64,000 nt of DNA from assembly GCA_946186895.1 (NCBI GenBank), contig CAMHOW010000008.1, positions 1 to 64,000 of the forward strand, given 5' to 3'. Origin of the DNA: an uncultured Fibrobacter sp. (GTDB lineage: Bacteria; Fibrobacterota; Fibrobacteria; Fibrobacterales; Fibrobacteraceae). This document shows positions 1,191 through 51,418 of the stretch, piece after piece. The position numbers and the translations under genes were made by a program. Under the pieces are notes generated by a model. It had not been told where the DNA came from and did not search any database. It worked only from the letters and a program-made list of their open reading frames with translations. Position 1 is the first letter of the stretch, and each line of letters starts with the position of its first letter.

Positions 1191-1292
1191 GTAATTAGGA
1201 ATTCGGAATTCGGAATTCAGAGTTAAAATAATCGCGGCGAAGCCGCCAAACTAAACAATTCCTAATTCATAATTCCGAAATCCGAACTAATA
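1191..1292. repeat. Heptamer/hairpin inverted-repeat element, copy A
   Basis: Arm gtaatta|ggaattc|ggaattc|ggaattc|agagtta; core aataatcgcggcgaagccgccaaactaaacaa; reverse-complement heptamer arm attccgaaatccgaac. Confidence 0.8.
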
Positions 1293-10343: not shown

Positions 10344-10841
10344 TTATTCTATCACTGTAGCGGTAACCTTGGCGTGCCCAACCTTGTCGAGGCCGATATC
10401 CTTGCCGGCAACTACGCTCAGATCCAATATCCGACCGTCTACATAAGGCCCACGGTCATTGACCCGCACCACCACAGAAGCCCCGTTATCGTCCCGAACC
10501 ACCTTCAGCTTGGTACCGAAGGGCAGGGACTTGTGGGCACAGGTGTAGTCATTCTGGTTGAAAATCTCGCCACTAGCCGTTTTCTTGCCATGAAACCCAG
10601 GACCATAGTAGCTAGCCTCGCCGGTGAGCTTGGTGCCTATTTCGGCCTTTTCCTTAGAGGCGTAATGTTTTTCAGGGAACCGGACAAAGCCCTTGCGGGA
10701 AGCGATCTTTGCGTTTGCTGAAGCACAGCCCGAAAAAGCCAAAGCCAACAGAGCGCACAGAATGCATATTAGGAAACGCCTCAAAAAGCCATCCCTACTC
10801 AAAATCGTACATGCTGTTGTAGGAATTTTCAAGGATTTCAT
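10344..10841 (-). CDS. rlpA: RlpA-like double-psi beta-barrel lipoprotein
   Basis: GEASYYGPGFHGKKTASGEIFNQNDYTCAHKSLPFGTKLKV...VRVNDRGPYV; lipobox FSGC. Confidence 0.9.
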   Translation of the reverse strand: MKSLKIPTTACTILSRDGFLRRFLICILCALLALAFSGCASANAKIASRKGFVRFPEKHYASKEKAEIGTKLTGEASYYGPGFHGKKTASGEIFNQNDYTCAHKSLPFGTKLKVVRDDNGASVVVRVNDRGPYVDGRILDLSVVAGKDIGLDKVGHAKVTATVIE

Positions 10842-12705
10842 CTTCCTTGCTCTTGACTTCGGCCTTCTTCTCTTCGGGCTTCTTGTTTATACTTTCCTGG
10901 TACTGGGCAGACATCTGTTCAATGTGTTCTACACTTTGCTGAACACGCCTACGTAAGCGTTCCAACTCAGCATCGCTAATGGCGAGCCTGTGATCCAGCA
11001 ATTTAGCGGCCTCTTTACCCCAAGGAGTGTCTCTGTATTTTGAGCGCAGCTCATTTAAGACCGTGGCGGCACTGTCACCACGTTCCGGATCCATCTGGAA
11101 ATACACGTACTTCATGTACAGGGCCTGTATTCCCGCTTCTGTATCGGGATACTCCCTGTAAAGACTGTCAAAGGCAACATGGGCCGTTGCGTATGCCGAA
11201 TCTACCAGTTCCATCTGGTCCAGAGGCACCTCCGACGCCACCGTCCACAGGCTTTCTGCCTGCAGGTAGCGATCACGGGCCTCGTCATCACGGGTCTTGA
11301 TGGTCACACGCATTCCCAAGTTTACCTGGGCCTGCTTGGCATACTCCGTACCCGGATACTTTTCAATGATTTCCTTGTACATCTCTTCAGCCGTATCGGG
11401 GTCGCCCTTGAATTCGTCATAGATGAAAGCCCGGGCATAGGTCGCCCGCATCACTCGAGCTGAATCGTCCGCATTCTCGATAACCCCCGTCAGCCTCGCG
11501 ATGGCGCTATCCACTTCAGACAGCTTGAACAAGAACAACTCGGCTATCTGGAATTCCGTACCATAGAAGATGTTCATGTTGGGAATGGAATCTTTCTTCA
11601 AAGAATCATTCGCATTCCGCATAGCAATCAGACGCTTGAGAGCTTCGCTCAGAGACCGGCTCTTCTGGCCCCATTCGCAATAGTTCAGGGAACTGTAGCT
11701 GCTATCGTAATAAACTACAGCCTGTTCATAGTTCAGAGTCTTCTGCTGCTCGTAATCGCCCATATTGTAGTAGCTGCGAGCTGCATATACGGTTCTCGGA
11801 TAATCCGAATTCACCTTGCGCAAGATAATGAAGGCATCTGGATAGCGTTCCGCCATCAAGGTCACCTCACCTAGGCGCACCAGGTATTCCGGCTGCTTCT
11901 GTTCGTAATCCGGATTCTTGAATAGGGCCTTGTACTCGTCGGCCGCCTTCAAGTATTCCTTCTGGTTTACCAAGCATTCCGCCGCCTGTTCTCCTGCAGT
12001 CTGCCGCTCCCTCACATTAAGCAGCTCTATTTCCTTGGCTGTATAATGTTCTCTAGACTTTGCCCAGTCCTCTTTCTTGTAATAGAGACCTGCTAGACGG
12101 AAGTGGGCCTTGCCCCGCATAAAAGGAGTTCCCGCTGTATCAGCCAGCACTGCTTCCAGCGCTGCGATGGCCTGGTCTGGAAATTCAGACTGTTCATCCA
12201 GCAAAGAAAGCAGGTTCAACCCCTGAAAATAGTATGGGTGATTCTTACTTGCAATTACGGGTTCCAGCGCAAAACGGCTGATGTTGTATTCATGGTTCCG
12301 ATAGAGACAGTAGGCCCGCTGGTATTCCACCGCCCGCATGGAATCGTAATCGGCGAAATACCTTTCATACTCATCGTACTTGACAATAGCCTTGCCCCAT
12401 TCCCCTTTGTGGCGGAATGATTCCCCTATCAGGAATACGGCCTCAGCGGTACGCTTCTTGTTATTGGGGAAGCGTTCCAAAACGCGGGAGCCCTTCTCGA
12501 TAACCTTGTCATACTTTTGGCGTTCTTCCATTCCCGGACTAGAATCGGTCTCTTCAGGGATGCTGTCGAGACGGGCCTCGCGAAGTTCCCCCGCCTCGTC
12601 ATAAAGGCGTTCCGCATTGAACATATGGTTCAGGTAGGCACAGCAAGTACACCCCTCCAGCAAGAGGGCGACAAAAGCCAATACCATATAGCGGAAAAAT
12701 CGCAT
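10795..12705 (-). CDS. TPR-containing outer-membrane lipoprotein (BamD/YbgF-like)
   Basis: Lipobox LLEGCTC; many TPR-like helices. Confidence 0.75.
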   Translation of the reverse strand: MRFFRYMVLAFVALLLEGCTCCAYLNHMFNAERLYDEAGELREARLDSIPEETDSSPGMEERQKYDKVIEKGSRVLERFPNNKKRTAEAVFLIGESFRHKGEWGKAIVKYDEYERYFADYDSMRAVEYQRAYCLYRNHEYNISRFALEPVIASKNHPYYFQGLNLLSLLDEQSEFPDQAIAALEAVLADTAGTPFMRGKAHFRLAGLYYKKEDWAKSREHYTAKEIELLNVRERQTAGEQAAECLVNQKEYLKAADEYKALFKNPDYEQKQPEYLVRLGEVTLMAERYPDAFIILRKVNSDYPRTVYAARSYYNMGDYEQQKTLNYEQAVVYYDSSYSSLNYCEWGQKSRSLSEALKRLIAMRNANDSLKKDSIPNMNIFYGTEFQIAELFLFKLSEVDSAIARLTGVIENADDSARVMRATYARAFIYDEFKGDPDTAEEMYKEIIEKYPGTEYAKQAQVNLGMRVTIKTRDDEARDRYLQAESLWTVASEVPLDQMELVDSAYATAHVAFDSLYREYPDTEAGIQALYMKYVYFQMDPERGDSAATVLNELRSKYRDTPWGKEAAKLLDHRLAISDAELERLRRRVQQSVEHIEQMSAQYQESINKKPEEKKAEVKSKEDEILENSYNSMYDFE

Positions 12706-12753
12706 AGGGTAAAGATACAAAAAAGTAGGGGGCGGGAAACAGGCCCTAATTAG

Positions 12754-12817
12754 GAAATGTGAGGTGTGAGATGTGAAATGAATCATTTCACATTACACAT
12801 TCCACATTACACATTTT
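12754..12817. repeat. Heptamer palindrome (GNNATGT arms around a perfect 19-nt palindrome)
   Basis: gaaatgt|gaggtgt|gagatgt|gaaatga then atttcac|attacac|attccac|attacac|atttt; gtgaaatga-a-tcatttcac at 12773-12791. Confidence 0.8.
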
Positions 12818-12820
12818 GCA

Positions 12821-14533
12821 TTAAAACTCGTTCAGATACGTGCTGTAGTCGCACAACTTGAGGCCTGGCGGAAGCACAGACTTGTCAAAACGGACCATTC
12901 GGATTTCCTTAGGTGTTCCGACAACCCGAGCGAGAATTTCAAAATTGTCCTGGGTTTCCCAGACAGCCGCATCAATAACAAGGCCATCGCCACAATCTGT
13001 CTCGCCAGTGCTATTTCCAATACCAGAAATTCTAGAATTCTGCTTCAGGAACCTGGTGAAAACTTCTGGCGCAAGCCCCAGATGATTGGATGTGGTCGAA
13101 GAATCATAAACCACCACGTGGACTTCGCGGAAACGATTCAGGGAATCAAAAACCACCGTGTAGGTGTGCTTGTAAGGGGCATCGTAGAAACTTTCTTGCC
13201 AGACATTCTTCTTGACAGGCCTAAAATTCTTGATGTCGTACTTCTTGAAAAATTCTGCAGGAGTCGCTCCGTAACGGACAAGGTAATGGCCCAGCATCGT
13301 TGAGAAATCGTGTTTGGTCGAGGGAGCCATGGACTCTCGAAGGCTGTCCACAGCGCGGTTCAGATCTTCGGCAAGTCCGTTCGCCTGCACCGGCAACACT
13401 GGGCGGGTCACATTACATTCCTGTATGCGCTGCTGGATATCCGGATACTCCGGATCCTTGCTCTGAATCTCTCTGAACTGGATACGGGCGCGGTCAAAAT
13501 CACGCCCCTTCAAGTATGCAAGTCCCAGAGCCTCACGCAAGGGCATGTTCTCGGGATATTTTTCCACCAGAGGTTCAAGGATTTCCCAAGCCAGTTGGGA
13601 GCGGTCCATGGGAGAAATTTTACCGCCACCCACTCCGGGTGCAGTCTTTTCGCCAACAGTCGCCAAAGCAATTGCGGCACCTTCAAAATCCGGCCTAAAA
13701 GCAAGAATTCTCTGGTAAACCTTTTCCGCCTCGTCATAACGGCCCTGGTATTCCAGCAGATACCCGCGTAAAAGCAGCATTTCGGCATCCATGGGGTACT
13801 GAGTCAGACCATAATCCAACAACGAGGAACAGCTATCCAGCGTGCCCATATCATGGAAAAGCCTAGCCAGGACTTCGTAGCCACGGGGTTCGTTACCAGC
13901 CGAAAGACTAATGGCCGCACGGGATTCCTCTACGGCCTGGGGCATGCGATTGTTTTCATTCAAAAGACGGGCGTACCAAAGACGGGCCTCCACCAAAGCT
14001 GGAGCCTGCTCCACTGCAATCTTTGCCATCTCAAGGGCCACCGTCTTGTTGCCAGACTTGTATGTCTTGCGACTTTCAAGATACTTGGCCAGTCCCGTAT
14101 TCGGATACTTGCCTTGTAACTTCCCGATTAACAAGTTCAGACGATTGTTCTCCAACTCCGTCAAGGAATCTATTTCGAACAAACTATTGGTTTCGTTCCA
14201 CAGGGAAACCACCAGGTCCGGATACAACAAAGACACGGCATTAAAAATCTCATTAGCCTGCACATAGGCTCCGCTACGGAACAGTTCTGTTGCGCGACGA
14301 ATTTCGCCCTGGGTCTGGAGAGGTAGCTCCGAAAGTTCCTGACGCATATCGGGGGAATCCCCCTTCAAAAACTGCGTTCCCGCCTTGAGGCCAAAAGGAA
14401 CTTCCGGCACCGTCACCTTGGCAGGGGCCATATCCAGATACAACTGATAACCGCCCAAACCGACAACGGCAACACAGCAGAGAATCAAGAAAAGGTAAGC
14501 TGCCTTCCGGGCTGTCTCGGATGCCAAAGCCAT
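12821..14533 (-). CDS. Tetratricopeptide repeat protein
   Basis: N-terminal TM segment; TPRs (YDEAEKVYQRILAFRPDFEGA...); ATGA overlap with the sigma factor gene. Confidence 0.75.
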   Translation of the reverse strand: MALASETARKAAYLFLILCCVAVVGLGGYQLYLDMAPAKVTVPEVPFGLKAGTQFLKGDSPDMRQELSELPLQTQGEIRRATELFRSGAYVQANEIFNAVSLLYPDLVVSLWNETNSLFEIDSLTELENNRLNLLIGKLQGKYPNTGLAKYLESRKTYKSGNKTVALEMAKIAVEQAPALVEARLWYARLLNENNRMPQAVEESRAAISLSAGNEPRGYEVLARLFHDMGTLDSCSSLLDYGLTQYPMDAEMLLLRGYLLEYQGRYDEAEKVYQRILAFRPDFEGAAIALATVGEKTAPGVGGGKISPMDRSQLAWEILEPLVEKYPENMPLREALGLAYLKGRDFDRARIQFREIQSKDPEYPDIQQRIQECNVTRPVLPVQANGLAEDLNRAVDSLRESMAPSTKHDFSTMLGHYLVRYGATPAEFFKKYDIKNFRPVKKNVWQESFYDAPYKHTYTVVFDSLNRFREVHVVVYDSSTTSNHLGLAPEVFTRFLKQNSRISGIGNSTGETDCGDGLVIDAAVWETQDNFEILARVVGTPKEIRMVRFDKSVLPPGLKLCDYSTYLNEF

Positions 14534-19572: not shown

Positions 19573-22500
19573 TTAACGTATAATAATACGGCTGGTCTTT
19601 ACGGCACTGCCGCTCGTTACGCGGACCATGTAACTACCCTGCGGCAGCCCTTGGAGGGAAACATCCCTACTACCAGCAAAGGCTTCCTGGAAGGTCTTCA
19701 CACGATTGCCCAACATGTCAAAGACATGCACGCGTACAAGCGCCTGCTTAGGCATGTTAACCGTCAGCACATTATGACTGAAGGCCAAATTCGGCAGGAG
19801 CATTTTTCCGGAAGCAACCACATCCGTTGCATCTGCGGGAACGCTGGAGCTTGAGCTGCTAGAAACAACTTCCGGCTCCTGGACACTAGAGCTGGACGCC
19901 ACCACGTAGTCACAAGAGGTTTCTGTCCACCAGGTGCTATCCACAGCAGAGGTTTCTACCCACTTGAGGATACGATTCCTTTGTGAGCTCAGCGTATAGC
20001 ATACGCCATCCTTCATGTTGTTCAGTCCCTTGTAGTAGCAGTGCGAAGCATAACCACCCTCGCCATTTACGAAGGCAATGCAAGGTCCTTCATAGGAATC
20101 AGAAGACGACTCTTCGGCACTGGAGCTGGATTCTTCCTCGCTAGAGCTAGAAGATTGTTCTTCGCTGCTGGAGCTGATCTCTTCGCTTGAAGAAGACTCC
20201 TCGCTGCTGGAGCTAGATTCTTCTTCACTAGAACTAGACTCTTCAACACTAGAGCTAGAAGACTGTTCTTCACTGCTGGAACTGATTTCTTCGCTAGAGG
20301 AAGACTCCTCGCTGCTGGAGCTAGATTCTTCTTCACTAGAACTAGACTCTTCAACACTAGAGCTAGAAGACTGTTCTTCACTGCTAGAGCTGACTTCCTC
20401 ACTAGAAGAAGATTCCTCGGCACTGGAGCTAGAAGACTGTTCCTCGCTACTGGAACTGGATTCCTCGACGCTGGAGCTAGAAGACTGTTCTTCGCTGCTA
20501 GAACTGGATTCTTCTATGCTAGAGCTAGAGCTTTCGGGAATCTGTTCTTGACGGAAGGTTGCCATGTAGCTAGCCTCACCCGTCACAGCCTCAATTTCTG
20601 GTTCCCAGGAGTCAAAGAAATAGCGATACGCTTCCGTCGAGGGTTTGAATGGCACTGTACCCTCATAAACAGGTACCGTACCATACTCAACCATCGTATT
20701 CTGCAACTCGGTATTATCGTAATTCAAGAATACAACGGTATACTTGTTCACTGTGCTGCTCACTACAGCCGTATAGGTAGCCTCGCCCGTCACAGCGGTT
20801 AATGCAGGCGTCCAACCGTCAAATGTGTAGGTGTACTGGGCCGTGTTGGCGAGCGTTTTGCCCTTAGGAGCCGTGGGTACCGTACCGTATTCCACCTGGG
20901 CCGTAGTTTCCGTGCCGTCGCCATTCACGAAGGTGATGGTGTACTTGTTCTTCGTAGAGGTGTAGGTGGCCGTGTAGGTAGCGTTTTTCGTTACATCAGC
21001 AAGTGTCGGAGTCCAACCGGCGAAGGTGTAGGTATATTCAGCCGTAGCGGCCTTGGTCGGATTGGCAGGCTTTACAATGGCGGTGGCAGCCGTTCCATAA
21101 GCATACTCCGTTGCAGCCTTCAGAACTGTTCCGTCTTCATCCACGAAGGTTACCGTATACTTGTTAGTAGAAGACGTGTAGGTTGCCGTATAGGTCACAT
21201 CGCCAGTCACGTCAGCCACTGCGGGAGACCAACCCGCAAAGGTATAGGTCACACCATCATCACCCGGCTTTGTCGGATCGGCGGGCTTTGCGATGTTGGC
21301 GGCAGCAGTACCGTAGTCGTATTCAGCAGCCGCCAACAACTCCGTGCTACCATCTTCATCCACGAAAGTTACCGTGTACTTGTTCACTGTGCTGCTCACT
21401 ACAGCCGTATAGGTAGCCTCGCCTGTCACAACGGTAAGTGCCGGAGTCCAGCCGCTAAAGCTGTAGGTGTACTGGGCCGTATTGGCTGGCGTTTTGCCTT
21501 CGGGGGCCGTAGGCACCGTACCGTATTCCACCTGGGCCGTAGTTTCCGTGCCGTCGCCATTCACGAAGGTGATGGTGTACTTGTTCTTCGTAGAGGTGTA
21601 GGTGGCCGTGTAGGTAGCGTTTTTCGTTACATCAGCAAGTGTCGGAGTCCAACCGGCGAAGGTGTAGGTATATTCAGCCGTAGCGGCCTTGGTCGGATTG
21701 GCAGGCTTTACAATGGCGGTGGCAGCCGTTCCATAAGCATACTCCGTTGCAGCCTTCAGAACTGTTCCGTCTTCATCCACGAAGGTTACCGTATACTTGT
21801 TAGTAGAAGACGTGTATGTCGCCGTATAGGTCACATCGCCGGTCACATCAGCCAACGCAGGAGACCAGCCTGCAAAGGTATAGGTCACACCATCATCACC
21901 CGGCTTTGTCGGGTCAGCGGGCTTCTCGATGTTGGCGGCAACGGTACCATAATCGTATTCCGTCGCAGCCTTCAAAACCGATTCGTCTTCATCCACGAAG
22001 GTTACCGTGTACTTGTTCACCGTGCTGTTCACTACGGCCGTATAGGTGGCGTTACCCGTCACAGCCACAATCTCGGAATCCCAACCGCCAAACGTGTAGG
22101 TGTACTGTGCCGTATTAGCAGGAGTCTTGCCTTCAGGAGCCGTAGGCACCGTACCGTATTCCACCTCGGCTGTAGTTTCTGTACCATCGCCATTCACAAA
22201 GGTGATGGTGTACTTGTTCTTCGTAGAGGTGTAGGTGGCCGTGTAGGTGGCATTTTCTGTCACCCCAGCAATTTCAGGGCTCCAACCGGCGAAGGTGTAG
22301 GTGTATTCAGCCGTAGCAGCCTTCGTCGGATCCGCAGGCTTCTCGATGTTGGCGGCAACGGTACCGTAATCGTATTCAGCAGCCGCCAATAACACCGTGC
22401 TACCATCTTCATCCACAAAAGTAACGGTGTACTTGTTCACCGAACGGTTCACGATAGCCGTATAGGTTGCCTCGCCCGTTACAGCCACAATCTCGGAATC

Positions 22501-25500
22501 CCAACCGCCAAACGTATAGGTGTACTGTGCCGTATTAACAGGAGTCTTGCCTTCAGGAGCCGTAGGCACCGTGCCATATTCCACCTCGGCAGTAGTTTCC
22601 GTGCCATCGCCGTTCACGAAGGTGATGGTGTACTTGTTCTTCGTAGAGGTGTAGGAGGCCGTGTAGGTAGCATTTTCTGTCACCCTAGCAATTTCAGGGC
22701 TCCAACCGGCGAAGGTGTAGGTGAACTCCGCCGTAGCAGCCTTCGTCGGGTCGGCGGGCTTTACGATGTCAGCGGCAGCAGTACCGTAGTCGTATTCAGC
22801 AGCCGCCAACAACACCGTACGACCATCTTCATCCACAAAAGTAACGGTGTACTTGTTCAGGGTCGCCGTATAGGTCGCAATATAGGTGGCATCGTCCACT
22901 ACATCCACAAGTTCCGGCGACCAACCCGCAAATTCATAGGTGTATTCCGCATTTGTCGCCTTCGTCGGGTCGGCGGGCTTTACGATGTCGGCGGCCAAGG
23001 TTCCAAAATCATACTCCGCAGCTTCCTTGAGGACCGTGGTCAAGTCGTCATCCATGAAGGTCACTGCAAACTTTCTCTTAGTTCCTATAAACTTGGCCGT
23101 ATAATCGGCGTCCTGCGTGACGGTCACCAAATCGGGATCCCATCCGTCAAAAGCGTAGGTATACCCAGCATCCATTGCCTTAACGGGAGTTTCTCCAGAA
23201 TAGACAGGAAGTTCACCGTAGGCCACAGATTCCGTTGCAAGAACATCTTCTCCATTCAAGAAACGAATAGAATAGGCATTTACAACTGCATTAAAATCAG
23301 CCACGTACGTTGCATTTTCTGTTGCAGTCGTCAGTGCCGGAGTCCAGCCCTTGAAATTATAGGTGTACTGTGCCGTAGCTTCCTTAGTGGGTTCATCGCC
23401 GGTATATGCCGGAACCGTTCCCGCTTCCACTTCCACCGTCTGCAGAACCGTTTCACCATTCACAAAAGTAATGGTATACTTGACAACTCCACAAGAAGAT
23501 TCAACCCACCACCAAGTTTGCGACACATCGTTATTTATATACTGCGGATTTTCGCCCATACGATCTGGATTCATCGTATAGCATTTCCCGTCTTCCATAT
23601 TCTTCAGTCCAGAATTATAGCAGTGATCCCCATAGCCACCTACGCCATCTACAAAAGCAATACAAGGGCCATCTGATAAAGAACTTGATGACACTGCAGA
23701 CGAGCTACTTTCTTCGGAGCTAGAGCTAGACTCTTCAACGCTAGAACTAGATTCTTCCTCACTAGAACTTGATACTTCTTCCGAAGAGCTGCTCTCCTCA
23801 GAAGAGCTACTCTCTTCAGACGAGCTACTTTCTTCGGAGCTAGAAGAGCTTTCTTCGTTTCCGCAAGAAGTTTCCACCCACCAATATTCCTGAGCGGCAT
23901 CATCATTCATGTAGGTTTGAATTTCATTAATTCTTGCCGGATTCAGCATGTAGCATTTTCCTTCTTCCATATGCTGAAGACCAGAATTGTAGCAATGGTC
24001 ACCATAACCACCAGTGCCATTTACAAATGTGATACAAGGGCCATTCGACACGGAGCTAGACGAAACCACGGAACTTGACGATTCCTCTGACGAACTGCTT
24101 TCCTCGGAACTAGAGCTGACCGAGCTAGAAGACACGCTTGAAGAAGAAATGCTAGAAGACGAGGCAACAGAGCTACTAGAAGCAGGTTCGGGCAAGCCCT
24201 CACAACGGACATCATCTATTTCCAAAGTTCCAGCGTCACCTGTCTGGCCTGTAATCTGCCAACTGAAGGCCTTTGCATTGGCACGGGCATCGGCAACATT
24301 GACGGTCACATCGGTCCATGTGGGCTGAGTCATAGACGCTAGGGCAACCGTCTTCTTGGTCCAGCTGCTAGCACTTTCAGCAGAAGCTTCATGGTAGCCA
24401 TAATCCGTTACCAGCGGCGTTTCCATACGTATCGTATGGGCAGCTCCCTTATAGTAATAGCTGATGCTGGTACAAGAATTCAAGCTAACGGCACTCTTAT
24501 CCGACAGCAGGTCGATAGAAATACCCACCTGCGGGTCATAAGGCAAGCCGGCCTTATTCAGAGAATAAGTAGCCTTGAACGCCTTGGTGGAATTACGGCC
24601 CTCGGAAAAGCCGGTCGTAATCGTGGATGCGCCACTTTTATCGTTGTCGTCATAAGTGGTCCATTCACCGCCCCATTCGGACACGTAGTCTGCGTCTTCA
24701 AAATTGTCGATCAAGGCAGTCAAATCGCTTGGCGTCGGGGCTGCCGAGGAGCTAGACGGTCTACTAGAAGAACTTTGGGCCGTGGAACTAGAGGAATTTC
24801 CCGAATTGCTGCTGTTGCCACCGCCAATAGAAATGGGATTCTGCGCCGCAAAGGTGTAATAGGAGTCGCCTGGATCCTGAATGGTAATGCCAATAACACC
24901 GTCAGCAATACGGTTGTTCAGGTTGCTGACGCTCATCCAGTCCTGGTAATCGTTATTGCTACCGCCGCCTACACCGTAACCGTCATCAGCAATAATCTTC
25001 TTGCCACCCATGGCCGCACTGGCTTGGGCCCATGTCAGCAGGTTATTGTTGTCGCTACGGATACGGCTTTGGTCACCCTGAGTACGGCCACCCGACGAGA
25101 ACAGGTAATCTACCTTGCTCTGGTCAAAATTGGCATACCAGCCGACGATGTCGCCGTTTAGCCACGGTGAAATATCCACCGCAATTTTTGCATTGGGTAA
25201 GGCGGCCTTGATTGTCGCTACAATGTCATTGAAATAAGTTCCGCACAATTCAGCATCAGGAATGGCTCCACCATCTTGATTATAACTTGAACGTGCGTCA
25301 CCAGATTCAGAATACTGGAAAAAATCCGGTTCAATCAGCCAGACTGTCGTCTTATCAGTCCCGTAGTCCTGCGCAATTCCCTGTGCATACGAGCGATAAC
25401 GAGCAATAATATCGCTCCAATGGTTTCTAATAGTCTGAGCACCATTAGTACAATGGTTTGGTGAGCCCATATCGCAATCCACATACCCCTGGTCCTTATC

Positions 25501-38416: not shown

Positions 38417-41011
38417 CTAGAACGGGTAGTTCCCGACGCGGACAAAGAACGCGTAGTCCATGACGTCGCCAAGCTCGTCAAGAGTTTCGCGATCTACTAA
38501 ACGGGACATACCCGCAGACACAGAGATGGACTTGTAAGAAAGGCGAAGCGTCGGTTCCAGGACAAACTTGTCCTGCTCCAGGCGAGACGTGGGATTTTCC
38601 TCGAAGTCCCGCACGTAGGCGCCAAACACCCACATTCCAAAGAGGCCCTTGTGGAGCCCCAGGTTTATGCGGGCAAGGCCATAGTGATGGCTTAGCAATT
38701 CGGGATTGTACCATTCCCCGGTCCAGGGGGTTGCCGCAACGGACCTGCGGTAGAAATTGTCCAAAGGCTTGAGCCCTGTGGTCTTTGGATAAACATAGCC
38801 GTGTCCCTCGTCGTGGAACATGTCCACACCGCCACTCAAGAAAATTCCCAGCGTAAGGAAGGACAACGGCGAGCGGCTGGCAAACATTTCCAAAGTGAGC
38901 TTATGGTAAATCGGAATCAAGTCGGCAAGTTCAATCTTGTAGCGTACAGACTGGAGTCCCCACTCCAGAAATACGGACTGTCCGCGATAGGCAAAAAACG
39001 GGTCGGTATCGCCCTCGGTGTAGCGGTACTGCAGTGACGGAGACACCGGCCAGGTTTCCAGATCGTCCATCCTGTAAACACTCGAGAAGTCAAGAGTCCG
39101 ATCCCCAAGCATAAAATTCAACGAAGCCACCTGGGTGCGGGTCAGGTGGTAATCCACCCACATGTTAAAGTCGCTACGCTTTTCGCCACGAGGCGTAGTC
39201 TGGTAGACATTGTCGTCCAGGTACGAGTCCAGAGGTTTCAGGGTGTACCAATCATAACGAAGCCCGACAGTCCAATCCCTGCTCCACAGGTGAGAAATTT
39301 CCAATCGAGGACTCACCCCGTACGATCTGGGGCCGACAAATCCAAAAACGCCAAGAGCGATATCCATCTGGTTCACAAAGGCAAGAGTCATGTCACCATA
39401 GGCATGAGGGCCGATAGCGCTGGAACCGAAACCGCCCAGAGAAACATCTACCGTAGGAGTCACCTTCGCACCGACCAACACGTTGCCCGTAGGGAGCATA
39501 TCGAAGGAAACGGAATCGTAGGCGGATTCCTTAGATATAGCCTTCAAGAAATTCTCCGGTGCCACCATGCCCGTGTCGCTTTCGTTCCAGTAAGACGCTA
39601 TGGTGGAATGGGTCTCCGCAGACAAGCTATCGAAAGACGGTTTGAACTTGAACCAGGGGCGAGCCACCTTCTTCAAGGTCATATAGTCCAGAGAATCGTT
39701 TCTAAACGGAATCAGTTCTGTAGCATGGCGTTCCAAGGCCGAGAACCCCGCCTGAATCCAAGCCGTATAGGAGGAATCCGTAGCGTAATGGGCACGCAGC
39801 ACCACGCCCGACTCCTGGTAAGACAAATTCTGCAGGGGCTTTTCGAAAAGGATACGTTGCCAGGGAGAATTCCAGGAAGACACGGTAGCCTTCGCCACAC
39901 GGGGGATCCCAACCGAGATAATGGGAACCTGGTCATAGACATCTTCGTAAGGCACAGCCAACCCCGGACATAGTTCGCCAGAGTTGTAGTTTTCAATCAT
40001 CGGGAGGCTCTTGAACACATCCTCCGATGATTTCCATTGCTCACCATTGCAGCCAATCACCGTAAAGGGAATCACCGCCCCTTGAGGCACACGGTTCATT
40101 GCCTCTTGCAGGCGGAGTTTTGCAAGGGCGTACCTCTGCGTAGCCGTATCCGGTTCGATGGACTTGGGGATTTTCCGCAAGTTTCTGGACGTGTCCGGTT
40201 CCAGAGTGAAACGATAGCGCAGACTTGGTACGCCTTCGGGAGAAATGGGCCAATCGGCCTGCTCGGACTTTTTGTTGTACAGGTCATCGAACATGTTGTG
40301 GCCCGCGTATCCCTGCAGGTACGGGTCCAAAAGTATGCGCTGGATATCGTCCAGCGTCATGCCGTGAGTCCAGAGGTAACCTACAAAGGCCCCCCATGAG
40401 GTTCCCACCACAGAATCGATACGGACCTTGTAATTTTCGATGGCATAAAGCACACCCAGGTGGAACCAGGGGGAGCGTTCGCCACCGCTCAGGTAGAGGA
40501 CGGATTTCTTGGGGCCTGGATTCAGATTTCGGATTTCGGAATTCGGATTGCCTGAATCGGAAGGACTGATTTCGCCAGTCGTCAAATCTATGGACACGCA
40601 TTTCCACGATGTGTCGGGGGAAGCCTCCCCCTCGCTCCCGCCGCATGCCACTCCCGACTCTCTCTTGTCATCCCCGCGACCTGTGGTGAGCGTAGCCGAA
40701 CCAAGGCGGGGATCTCCTATCAATCCCCCCCCCTCTGCGGCGTCCGCTACCCCCTCTGCAGGGGACACCCCCGCAACGCCCCCGCTGTCGGGGTTCGAGG
40801 TTCGAGGCTCGAGGTTCGAGGTCTGGGGTTCAGATGTAGGGGGAACAAGGCTATCTGCAGGAGCCTGCGCCGTAGAATCCTGGGCCGCCGTCATCTGCAA
40901 CAGCAGGCTGTCGGCAGGCTCTTCTGCAGGCAACAGGGAAAAGGCGACCAAGAGAAAGGTCGCCAACTTCACGAACAAGCGCCTATCCAAACCGTGCAGG
41001 ATTGGCCACAT
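38417..41011 (-). CDS. Patatin-like phospholipase-family protein with outer-membrane beta-barrel-like C-terminus
   Basis: GTSWG nucleophile-elbow motif (VVGTSWGAFVGYLW); signal peptide; C-terminal barrel-like repeats. N-terminal linker built from repeats. Confidence 0.75.
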   Translation of the reverse strand: MWPILHGLDRRLFVKLATFLLVAFSLLPAEEPADSLLLQMTAAQDSTAQAPADSLVPPTSEPQTSNLEPRTSNPDSGGVAGVSPAEGVADAAEGGGLIGDPRLGSATLTTGRGDDKRESGVACGGSEGEASPDTSWKCVSIDLTTGEISPSDSGNPNSEIRNLNPGPKKSVLYLSGGERSPWFHLGVLYAIENYKVRIDSVVGTSWGAFVGYLWTHGMTLDDIQRILLDPYLQGYAGHNMFDDLYNKKSEQADWPISPEGVPSLRYRFTLEPDTSRNLRKIPKSIEPDTATQRYALAKLRLQEAMNRVPQGAVIPFTVIGCNGEQWKSSEDVFKSLPMIENYNSGELCPGLAVPYEDVYDQVPIISVGIPRVAKATVSSWNSPWQRILFEKPLQNLSYQESGVVLRAHYATDSSYTAWIQAGFSALERHATELIPFRNDSLDYMTLKKVARPWFKFKPSFDSLSAETHSTIASYWNESDTGMVAPENFLKAISKESAYDSVSFDMLPTGNVLVGAKVTPTVDVSLGGFGSSAIGPHAYGDMTLAFVNQMDIALGVFGFVGPRSYGVSPRLEISHLWSRDWTVGLRYDWYTLKPLDSYLDDNVYQTTPRGEKRSDFNMWVDYHLTRTQVASLNFMLGDRTLDFSSVYRMDDLETWPVSPSLQYRYTEGDTDPFFAYRGQSVFLEWGLQSVRYKIELADLIPIYHKLTLEMFASRSPLSFLTLGIFLSGGVDMFHDEGHGYVYPKTTGLKPLDNFYRRSVAATPWTGEWYNPELLSHHYGLARINLGLHKGLFGMWVFGAYVRDFEENPTSRLEQDKFVLEPTLRLSYKSISVSAGMSRLVDRETLDELGDVMDYAFFVRVGNYPF
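40518..40549. repeat. Heptamer array inside the patatin-like CDS (copy D)
   Basis: ggattca|gatttcg|gatttcg|gaattcg|gattg; encodes NPNSEIRN on the minus strand. Confidence 0.75.
40667..40717. repeat. REP-like palindrome inside the patatin-like CDS
   Basis: gtcatccccgc ... gcggggatctcc inverted repeat with ggtgagcgtagccgaacc between the arms. Confidence 0.6.
40792..40833. repeat. Heptamer array inside the patatin-like CDS (copy E)
   Basis: ggttcga|ggttcga|ggctcga|ggttcga|ggtctgg|ggttcag; encodes TSNLEPRTSNP. Confidence 0.8.

Positions 41012-46293: not shown

Positions 46294-46294
<1 letters not shown>
46230..46294. repeat. Heptamer/mini-hairpin array abutting the uvrB start codon (copy G)
   Basis: gacccaa-a[ggcgc act gcgcc]g-accccaa-acctcaa-a[gcacc gta ggtgc]g-acctcat-acctgaa. 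Confidence 0.65.
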
Positions 46295-48489
<2,195 letters not shown>

Positions 48490-49681: not shown

Positions 49682-51316
49682 ATGCTCAAGAAGCTTTCCA
49701 ATTTCCCCGGCATCAAGGGTCCGGTCGTAACCATCGTGATGGATGGTTTTGGTATCACCGATAAGGTCGAAGGCAACGCCATCAAGGCTGCCCGCACCCC
49801 GACTCTCGACAACCTCTTCAAGATGTACCCGAACGTGCTCCTGAAGGCTCACGGCCGCGCCGTGGGTATGCCGACCAACGAAGACATGGGTAACTCCGAA
49901 GTGGGCCACAACGCTATCGGTGCCGGCCAGGTGTACAACCAGGGTGCCGCCCTCGTGCAAGACGCCATCGTCTCCGGCGACATCTTCGGCCGCGACGCTT
50001 GGAAGGAAATCGCCGGCAACGCCCGCGAAAAGAACTCCGTCCTCCACTTCATCGGTCTCTTCAGCGACGGTAACGTTCACTCCAACATTTCTCACCTCAA
50101 GGCCATGGTCGCCCAGGCCAAGAAGGAAGGCCTCAAGAAGGTCCGCGTGCACATCCTCCTCGACGGTCGTGACGTGCCGGAAACCTCCGCCCTCGATTAC
50201 GTCGGCCCGTTCGAAAAGTTCATCGACGAACTCCGCTCTCCGGAATTCGACGTTTGCATTGCTAGCGGCGGTGGCCGTATGCAGATTACCATGGACCGTT
50301 ACAACGCTAACTGGAAAATGGTGGAACTCGGTTGGAAGACCCACGTGCTGGGCGAAGGCCGCTACTTCGACAACGCTACGCAGGCTATCGAAACTCTCCG
50401 TGGCGAAACCAAGGCTATTGACCAGGATCTCCCGCCGTTCGTGATTGCCAAGGACGGCCAGCCGGTCGGCACCATCAACGACGGCGACTCCGTGGTGTTC
50501 TTCAACTTCCGTGGCGACCGCGCCATCGAAATCACCCGCGCCTTCGAAGAAGAATCCTTCAACGAATTTGACCGCAAGCGCTTCCCGAAGGTCTGCTACG
50601 CCGGCATGCTCCAGTACGACGGCGACCTCAAGCTCCCGAACCGCTTCTTGGTGCCGCCTCCGGCTATCAAGGAAACCAGCGGCGAATGGCTTTCCGAAAC
50701 GGGCGTGAAGCAGTTCGCCTGCTCCGAAACGCAGAAGTACGGCCACGTGACCTACTTCTGGAATGGTAACCGTTCCAGCAAGTTCGACGGCGAAACCTAC
50801 CTCGAAATCGAATCTGACGTTGTTCCGTTCGAACAGCGCCCGTGGATGAAGGCTGCCGAAATCACCGACGCCATGATCGAAGCTTTGAAGAGCGGCAAGT
50901 ACCAGACTCTCCGCTGCAACTTCCCGAACGGCGACATGGTGGGCCACACTGGTTCCTTCCGCGCCGCTACGATGGCTATCGAAGCCGTGGATATCGGCCT
51001 CGCCCGCTTGCTCCCGGTGATTGACGCCCTCGGCGGTGTCGCCATCATCACGGCTGACCATGGTAACGCCGACGAAATGTACGAAATCGACAAGAAGACC
51101 GGCATGCCGAAGGTCAACAAGGACGGTACGTTCAAGGCCAAGACGAGCCACACCCTCAACAAGGTGCCGTGCATCCTTTACGATAACGTAACGGGTGGCA
51201 AGCTCGGCCTCAAGGAAGGCGACTGGGGTCTTTCCAACATCGCTGCTACGACGGCCAACCTCCTCGGCCTCGAAAAGCACGAAGCTTGGGACGACAGCAT
51301 GCTAGTTATCAAGTAA
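49682..51316 (+). CDS. gpmI: 2,3-bisphosphoglycerate-independent phosphoglycerate mutase
   Basis: VVTIVMDGFGITD; TNEDMGNSEVGHNAIGAGQV; FNFRGDRAIEITRAF; ADHGNADEM. Confidence 0.96.
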   Translation: MLKKLSNFPGIKGPVVTIVMDGFGITDKVEGNAIKAARTPTLDNLFKMYPNVLLKAHGRAVGMPTNEDMGNSEVGHNAIGAGQVYNQGAALVQDAIVSGDIFGRDAWKEIAGNAREKNSVLHFIGLFSDGNVHSNISHLKAMVAQAKKEGLKKVRVHILLDGRDVPETSALDYVGPFEKFIDELRSPEFDVCIASGGGRMQITMDRYNANWKMVELGWKTHVLGEGRYFDNATQAIETLRGETKAIDQDLPPFVIAKDGQPVGTINDGDSVVFFNFRGDRAIEITRAFEEESFNEFDRKRFPKVCYAGMLQYDGDLKLPNRFLVPPPAIKETSGEWLSETGVKQFACSETQKYGHVTYFWNGNRSSKFDGETYLEIESDVVPFEQRPWMKAAEITDAMIEALKSGKYQTLRCNFPNGDMVGHTGSFRAATMAIEAVDIGLARLLPVIDALGGVAIITADHGNADEMYEIDKKTGMPKVNKDGTFKAKTSHTLNKVPCILYDNVTGGKLGLKEGDWGLSNIAATTANLLGLEKHEAWDDSMLVIK

Positions 51317-51418
51317 GCGAATTCAGATTTCAGAATTCGGAGTTCAGAGTTGTTTAATTTGGCGGCTACGCCGCGATTATTCAAATTCTGAAATCCGAAA
51401 TCAAAATTCCGAATTAAA
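51317..51418. repeat. Heptamer/hairpin inverted-repeat element, copy B (opposite orientation to copy A)
   Basis: aattcag|atttcag|aattcgg|agttcag|agttgtt; core reverse complement aataatcgcggcgtagccgccaaattaaacaa; arm attctgaaatccgaaatcaaaattccgaatta. Confidence 0.8.

Follow-up and report, generated by a model that had tools for sequence, protein, structure and literature searches.

Two heptad-armed palindromes in the window

The window, as the whole 64,000-nucleotide stretch analysed here is called, comes from a draft genome of an uncultured Fibrobacter sp. (G000; contig CAMHOW010000008.1) and carries two palindromic elements, copies A and B, in which arms of 7-nt units (heptads) enclose a small hairpin (Table 1). 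Copy A is flanked by two co-oriented genes and copy B by convergent gene ends, which we take from their sequences to belong to gpmI (49682-51316) and to a gene for a 254-aa putative lipoprotein. A preliminary description of the window had proposed two such copies in opposite orientation around a core hairpin with a 5-bp stem and a 3-nt loop, and this is what was found, the cores being identical at 30 of 32 positions and the hairpin being present in both. It was also right that copy A carries the stop codon of the 1287-2099 gene, as the last heptad supplies the TAG (CTA on the plus strand at 1287-1289, the gene lying on the minus strand). Tandem Repeats Finder (TRF) reports a period-7 array at 1193-1218. 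Either strand of both copies folds much better than shuffled sequence, with z scores against dinucleotide shuffles of -4.6 to -6.1 for RNA, where 0 of 200 shuffles folded as well, and of -4.2 and -4.4 for DNA.

Table 1. Heptad-containing features of the window. Sequences of copy B are given in core orientation.
Feature	Position	Strand	Description	Remarks
Copy A, whole element	1194-1289		Heptad-armed palindrome around GCGGC-NNN-GCCGC hairpin	
Copy A, left heptad arm	1194-1226	+	ATTAGGAATTCGGAATTCGGAATTCAGAGTTAA, dialect GGAATTC	Aligned with other elements
Copy A, core	1227-1258	+	AATAATC-GCGGC-GAA-GCCGC-CAAACTAAACAA; stem GCGGC/GCCGC, triloop GAA	Covariation
Copy A, right heptad arm	1259-1289	+	Complementary to left arm	
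Copy B, whole element	51316-51415		Heptad-armed palindrome, orientation opposite to copy A	
Copy B, left arm	51384-51415	-	Adjoins terminator-like hairpin/T-run of 51447-52211 gene	
Copy B, core	51350-51381	-	AATAATC-GCGGC-GTA-GCCGC-CAAATTAAACAA	
Copy B, right arm	51316-51349	-	Extends to stop codon of gpmI (49682-51316, +)	
Core-less heptad palindrome	12756-12826	.	TGTGARR/CACATTA	Between 10795-12786 and 12821-14536 genes
Array inside uvrB (46294-48489)	48219-48252	+	GGAATTC heptads, EFGVQNSEFGID	Linker before UVR motif
Array in 38417-41062 gene	40521-40552	-	TTCGGAT heptads	Variable linker
Second array in 38417-41062 gene	40788-40831	-	TCGAGGT heptads	Same linker

A covarying core shared by a genus-wide family

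Further copies of the core, whose existence the preliminary description had left to a search of the genome and its relatives, are present in the draft genome itself, which has 4 in total, the two beyond A and B on contigs C35 and C64, and in most related species. When 40 relatives were searched with the core pattern, allowing up to 3 mismatches and using the reversed pattern as control, genomes of the same genus gave up to 30 matches each against 0-1 for the control, and other families gave weak matches at control level; genome-wide counts throughout rest on such pattern searches and on 400-kb samples. Among complete genomes in the genus, G002, G004 and G013 lack the element or nearly so. Among the public-record matches listed, those with a paired stem and heptad arms belong to Fibrobacter and one Fibrobacterales bacterium. 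Spread outside the Fibrobacterota was considered and rejected as chance similarity, since the core matches from other phyla, among those listed, have no heptad arms and are mostly unpaired. Plasmids and phages yielded nothing matching copy A, and none of the inspected viral contigs among 13 pattern matches had both paired stem and heptad arms.

The copies share the frame (heptads)-ATAATC-GCNNC-NNN-GNNGC-CWAACT-(heptads), with heptads of AGKNNNN type. With a pattern that left two stem pairs free and unselected for pairing, a count by hand gave full Watson-Crick pairing in 128 of 132 matches from 11 genomes, against about 8 predicted by chance, and pairing with G.T in 2 more. Five stem sequences occur (GCGGC, GCGCC, GCAGC, GCACC and GCGAC). 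The triloop varies freely: there are many kinds, and of complementary loops both members are frequent (GAA and TTC, AAA and TTT). Copies A and B probably, if by no means certainly, belong to a family of short palindromic insertions without genes that extends across the genus.

Some elements are more elaborate. Those of a TTAGGNN dialect often contain a second small conserved hairpin, GATGCAC-NNN-GTGCATGA, in which the right arm, judged by eye, changes in a paired manner (L188, L192, L193, L195, L196 and L203 in G001, L221 in G015, L024 in G018), and additional small GC hairpins (TCGCTTCGC, GGCACTTCGTGCC) interrupt the arms of TTTGAGG-dialect elements, so that hairpins are nested within one element (L112, L087, L208, L209, L236 and others). 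At L015:1373-1590 (G020:C1:111510-111722) four related cores with their heptads are lined up in one direction as a 64-bp tandem repeat, from which it follows that elements can also grow as arrays.

Heptad arrays with and without the core

At a stringent cut-off the window contains 6 period-7 arrays and 400 kb of G003 contain 28, compared with none of period 8 and none in Markov-simulated sequence; G004, where the core is matched on neither strand, has only 3 lag-7 arrays. The 7-nt units that make up the arms often have AGT as their anchor (AGTNNNN), and (AGTNNNN)3AGT has up to 607 matches per genome, the corresponding spacing of 8 occurring essentially never. Most genomes have fewer matches for the reversed anchor TGA than for AGT. 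Exceptions are G006, G007, G008, G010 and some others, so that the AGT anchor is common without being universal. Polarity between left and right arms is weak and confined to some genomes.

Most arrays of the 400-kb census have no core. In the window, the palindrome at 12756-12826 has the architecture of copies A and B without the GCGGC hairpin, its 6-bp helices being interrupted by one mismatch every 7 nt, and G039, from the same class but another family, has 286 AGTNNNN arrays and zero core matches. Together with the direct array inside uvrB, these indicate that heptads are a wider phenomenon, with the GCGGC element as one clearly marked form of it. In relatives the uvrB linker holds AGACGAA or AGACGAG heptads (G007, G011, G012, G015), CTAGTAA heptads (G001) or no array.

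Repeats settle in the linker that precedes the UVR motif of UvrB (window 48219-48252; loci L373-L388), and in G015 this linker also holds IPAFAGMT-like translations of another palindromic repeat. The linker of the 38417-41062 gene likewise contains an apparent second repeat kind at 40640-40720 (TGTCATCCCCGCGACC...GGCGGGGATCTCC) that is read through in frame. Long in-gene tandem repeats with 108-bp and 420-bp units, at 20141-20514 and 21904-22859, probably correspond to linkers or domains repeated within surface proteins.

Could mutation in place account for all this? Heptad microsatellites might grow by slippage and be turned palindromic by template switching, with no transposition involved. 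The frequency of core-less arrays and palindromes, the direct arrays inside uvrB and the variation of unit numbers between close orthologues (e.g., L220/L072, L226/L237) are what such a process would produce. However, one dialect and the same core are common to dozens of loci, and slippage cannot produce a conserved core at unlinked sites. Moreover, the units are not identical: in G003, 21 of 36 unselected lag-7 arrays are in AGT phase, with the AGT positions kept at 0.85 against 0.64 for the other four, a difference that is partly circular because the phase was chosen by AGT. We therefore consider mutation without transposition quite an unlikely explanation.

Genome dialects are linked to stem type

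Heptads differ between genomes in a consistent manner. Arm similarity averages 0.32 within genomes and 0.11 between them, a difference of 0.21 that compares with a maximum of 0.036 in 2000 label shuffles, and the two arms within one locus resemble each other (0.26) more than they resemble arms of other genomes (0.07). The prevailing heptad is AGGTNTT in G001, AGTAGGA in G003 and G009, ATTGATN in G010, AGTNNTG in G015 and G021, AATTAYG in G024 and AGTCGCC in G026, which belongs to a sister family. The dialect is furthermore linked to the core: stems GCGCC/GCACC accompany the AGTNNTG dialect in 22 of 26 cases and other dialects in 13 of 80 (Fisher p 4e-10), and the linkage holds even within the single genome G015, which argues for subfamilies arriving whole and against arms being rewritten in place.

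Rewriting in place would be the work of a trans-acting, telomerase-like templated process that imposes the current heptad of a genome onto existing elements. Such a process would explain that dialects go with genomes even as some sites remain filled and that AGTNNNN units appear anchored as if on a template. Yet the stem type switches along with the dialect and orientation flips, a single genome can hold several dialects, each tied to a core type of its own, and the reverse transcriptase family RVT_1 (PF00078) is missing from most genomes, including most of the element-rich ones. Writing of heptads by a reverse transcriptase was accordingly rejected, and templated writing in general appears highly improbable.

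Filled and empty orthologous sites

The site of copy A, upstream of the gene starting at 1178, is empty in eight species (G002, G004, G007, G008, G009, G010, G011 and G013), in which the stop codon is followed by 10-25 nt and then by the leader of the next gene. It is filled by a GGAATTC element in G000 and G015, by TAGACAG/TTAGTGG-kind elements in G001 and G005 and by an AATTATG element in reversed orientation in G006, and further genomes carry other repeats there. The site of copy B is occupied only in G000 among the compared genomes; copy B is also present in L061, a public record that lies very close to the window genome. In L336 the flanking genes overlap as TAATG at a place where L107 and L248 have a full element. 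The preliminary description had suggested a dispersed repeat, as opposed to a sequence held by descent without presence/absence polymorphism, and had recommended looking for empty sites; the filled and empty alleles, and the additional copies elsewhere, speak for the dispersed, insertion-polymorphic repeat. Albeit, precise loss of old elements could imitate some empty sites.

An all-against-all comparison of flanks gave 52 orthologous element pairs. At flank identities of at least 93% the paired elements are the same, and below 93% nearly half of the pairs are unlike, 24 having an arm similarity below 0.2; 15 pairs are in opposite orientation. About twelve orthologous sites hold unlike elements, often oppositely oriented. 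By a rough estimate, about 9800 element pairs distributed over about 1000-2000 gaps predict 5-10 such coincidences, and the observed number being not far above random insertion into usable gaps, a hot-spot claim for shared sites was dropped. As filled and empty alleles are too diverged to place the junction, a target-site duplication is not definable, and as all comparisons are between species they do not reveal recent movement.

Gene context and a possible role as RNA

For 102 non-redundant elements both neighbouring genes were called, albeit from crude ORF calls, and 35 lie in convergent, 57 in co-oriented and 10 in divergent gaps. Against the background of G003 (46 convergent, 163 co-oriented and 50 divergent gaps), convergent gaps are enriched and divergent ones depleted. 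In 73 of the 102 cases (p 2e-5) the right-hand neighbour, on the CWAACT side, is oriented so that its end faces the element, and among co-oriented cases one orientation is favoured 38 to 19 (p 0.016). Avoidance of promoters, combined with a degree of strand preference, fits this bias, which is also compatible with an effect at the RNA level.

The elements might accordingly be transcribed 3'-UTR structures under selection, kept for an RNA function such as mRNA end protection, processing or attenuation. Paired changes in the stem with G.T tolerated, the strong fold, the gene ends pointing toward the element, the favoured orientation in codirectional gaps and the excess of convergent over divergent gaps would all agree with such a role. 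On the other hand, neither site nor orientation nor dialect is held between species, the element is absent or nearly absent from the complete genomes of G002, G004 and G013, the loop is free, and copy B already adjoins an ordinary terminator-like hairpin. A known RNA family can be set aside, as no Rfam family scored above its gathering cut-off at the element in ten loci. Moreover, palindrome copying at the DNA level would preserve pairing as well. Conservation for an RNA function is for these reasons unlikely.

How might the elements spread?

The elements are dispersed, insertion-polymorphic palindromes that resemble MITEs and REPs: their stem pairing is kept through change, their orthologous sites are occupied in some species and empty in others, and their genome dialects are linked to stem type. 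We infer that the whole unit, arms and core together, would be copied to new intergenic sites, as a shared core at unlinked sites and the dialect-stem linkage suggest. The palindromic form points to folded single-stranded or cruciform DNA as the probable substrate of an enzyme encoded by the host or by a mobile element, as with MITEs or REPs. After insertion, the number of units in the arms would shift by slippage with complementarity roughly held, and insertions may persist mainly where nothing breaks, that is, against stop codons and away from divergent promoters. Transcribed elements would become 3'-UTR hairpins and may have secondary effects.

Which enzyme might act on them? Two gene families were searched as candidate movers, PF00078 and the IS200/IS605-like Y1 transposase family PF01797 (Y1_Tnp), the latter because mobilisation by a REP-associated tyrosine transposase (RAYT) had been raised in the preliminary description. 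Like REP/BIME elements moved by RAYTs, the elements are small, intergenic and palindromic, have a triplet loop and supply stop codons by their TAG, and GTAG, the tag of REPs (PMC3733652), occurs within some heptads. This suggestion did not stand up: G000, the genome of the window, is without a PF01797 match, as are G005, G009, G010 and G015, these five having 4 to 30 elements each, and the family is present in 3 of 17 element-bearing or related genus genomes as well as in element-free G004. Its absence from most element-rich genomes largely refutes the RAYT reading, which we regard as very improbable. A new mobility system could also be imagined: a non-canonical enzyme would recognise both the covarying hairpin and the period-7 AGT arms and install palindromes in the heptad dialect of the genome at gene junctions, dialects and enzyme co-evolving; we offer this as speculation and consider it rather unlikely.

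Relation to known repeats

Comparisons with published repeats draw on parts of the cited papers. In Xanthomonas, G-rich heptamers of the form GGGAATC or (GGGANTN)n include 70-75 inverted pairs that lie close together and can form stem-loops (Rehm et al. 2015, PMC4692102). They share with the Fibrobacter elements a period of 7, degeneracy with fixed positions, an intergenic location, a preference for convergent over divergent gaps and the lack of an association with insertion sequences (PMC4692102). They differ in using one dialect, which is G4-forming, whereas Fibrobacter heptads are mostly not G-rich, and the available part of that paper reports neither a conserved covarying hairpin core nor an analysis of empty sites or dialect replacement (PMC4692102).

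An analogy to cyanobacterial heptad repeats, drawn in the preliminary description, stands in form, as a similarity of motif only, 7-nt units being too short to trace homology. In the P6b stem of the Nostoc trnL intron both strands consist of degenerate heptads, like the Fibrobacter arms, in two alternative dialects, Class I TDNGATT and Class II NNTGAGT, whose distribution does not follow phylogeny (PMC4476775, PMC3488679). Class II corresponds letter for letter to the AGTNNTG dialect of G015 and G021 (PMC4476775). The Nostoc heptads are restricted to one intron stem and are neither dispersed nor equipped with a GCGGC core (PMC4476775, PMC3488679). STRR and TAACTGA direct repeats of cyanobacteria, Beggiatoaceae and Bacteroidetes (PMC4679880) likewise consist of tandem 7-nt units dispersed between genes, form patchy intergenic arrays that mix related heptads, have no known mechanism, and are missing from the same gene neighbourhood in some relatives, as in Fibrobacter (PMC4679880). 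They differ in being direct and almost never inverted, and in the Maribeggiatoa genome they lie mostly just upstream of start codons (PMC4679880).

REP/BIME elements and GTAG/CGTC-tagged palindromes are also short, dispersed and extragenic with a GC hairpin, often bring TAG stops and sometimes lie within genes including uvr genes, as in Fibrobacter (PMC3733652). REP/BIME elements are imperfect palindromes of 20-40 bp with many extragenic copies. The Fibrobacter elements, of which there are many extragenic copies, measure about 100 bp, have period-7 arms and lack a RAYT partner and a fixed terminal tag. Like MITEs, the Fibrobacter elements are gene-less and non-coding, short (about 100 bp) and dispersed, end in inverted-repeat arms and are present or absent at orthologous sites. 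They depart from MITEs in that the arms are degenerate heptad arrays varying between genomes.

Heptad repeats, including inverted pairs, are already known in Xanthomonas and Nostoc; what is added here is a Fibrobacter family with MITE-like behaviour and a covarying core. In the open-access literature, including the searched passages of the papers cited above and of REP surveys, we found no report of heptad repeats for Fibrobacter nor of any with this covarying core, although an older or closed paper could exist, and the elements apparently constitute an abundant, real and undescribed repeat family.

Heptad repeats occur in unrelated bacteria. In Fibrobacter they are abundant and polymorphic between species, their dialects are species-specific, and the covarying core makes the elements countable. 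With element-rich and element-poor genomes within one genus, it becomes possible to test directly, by comparison and by experiment, how heptad repeats arise and move in bacteria.
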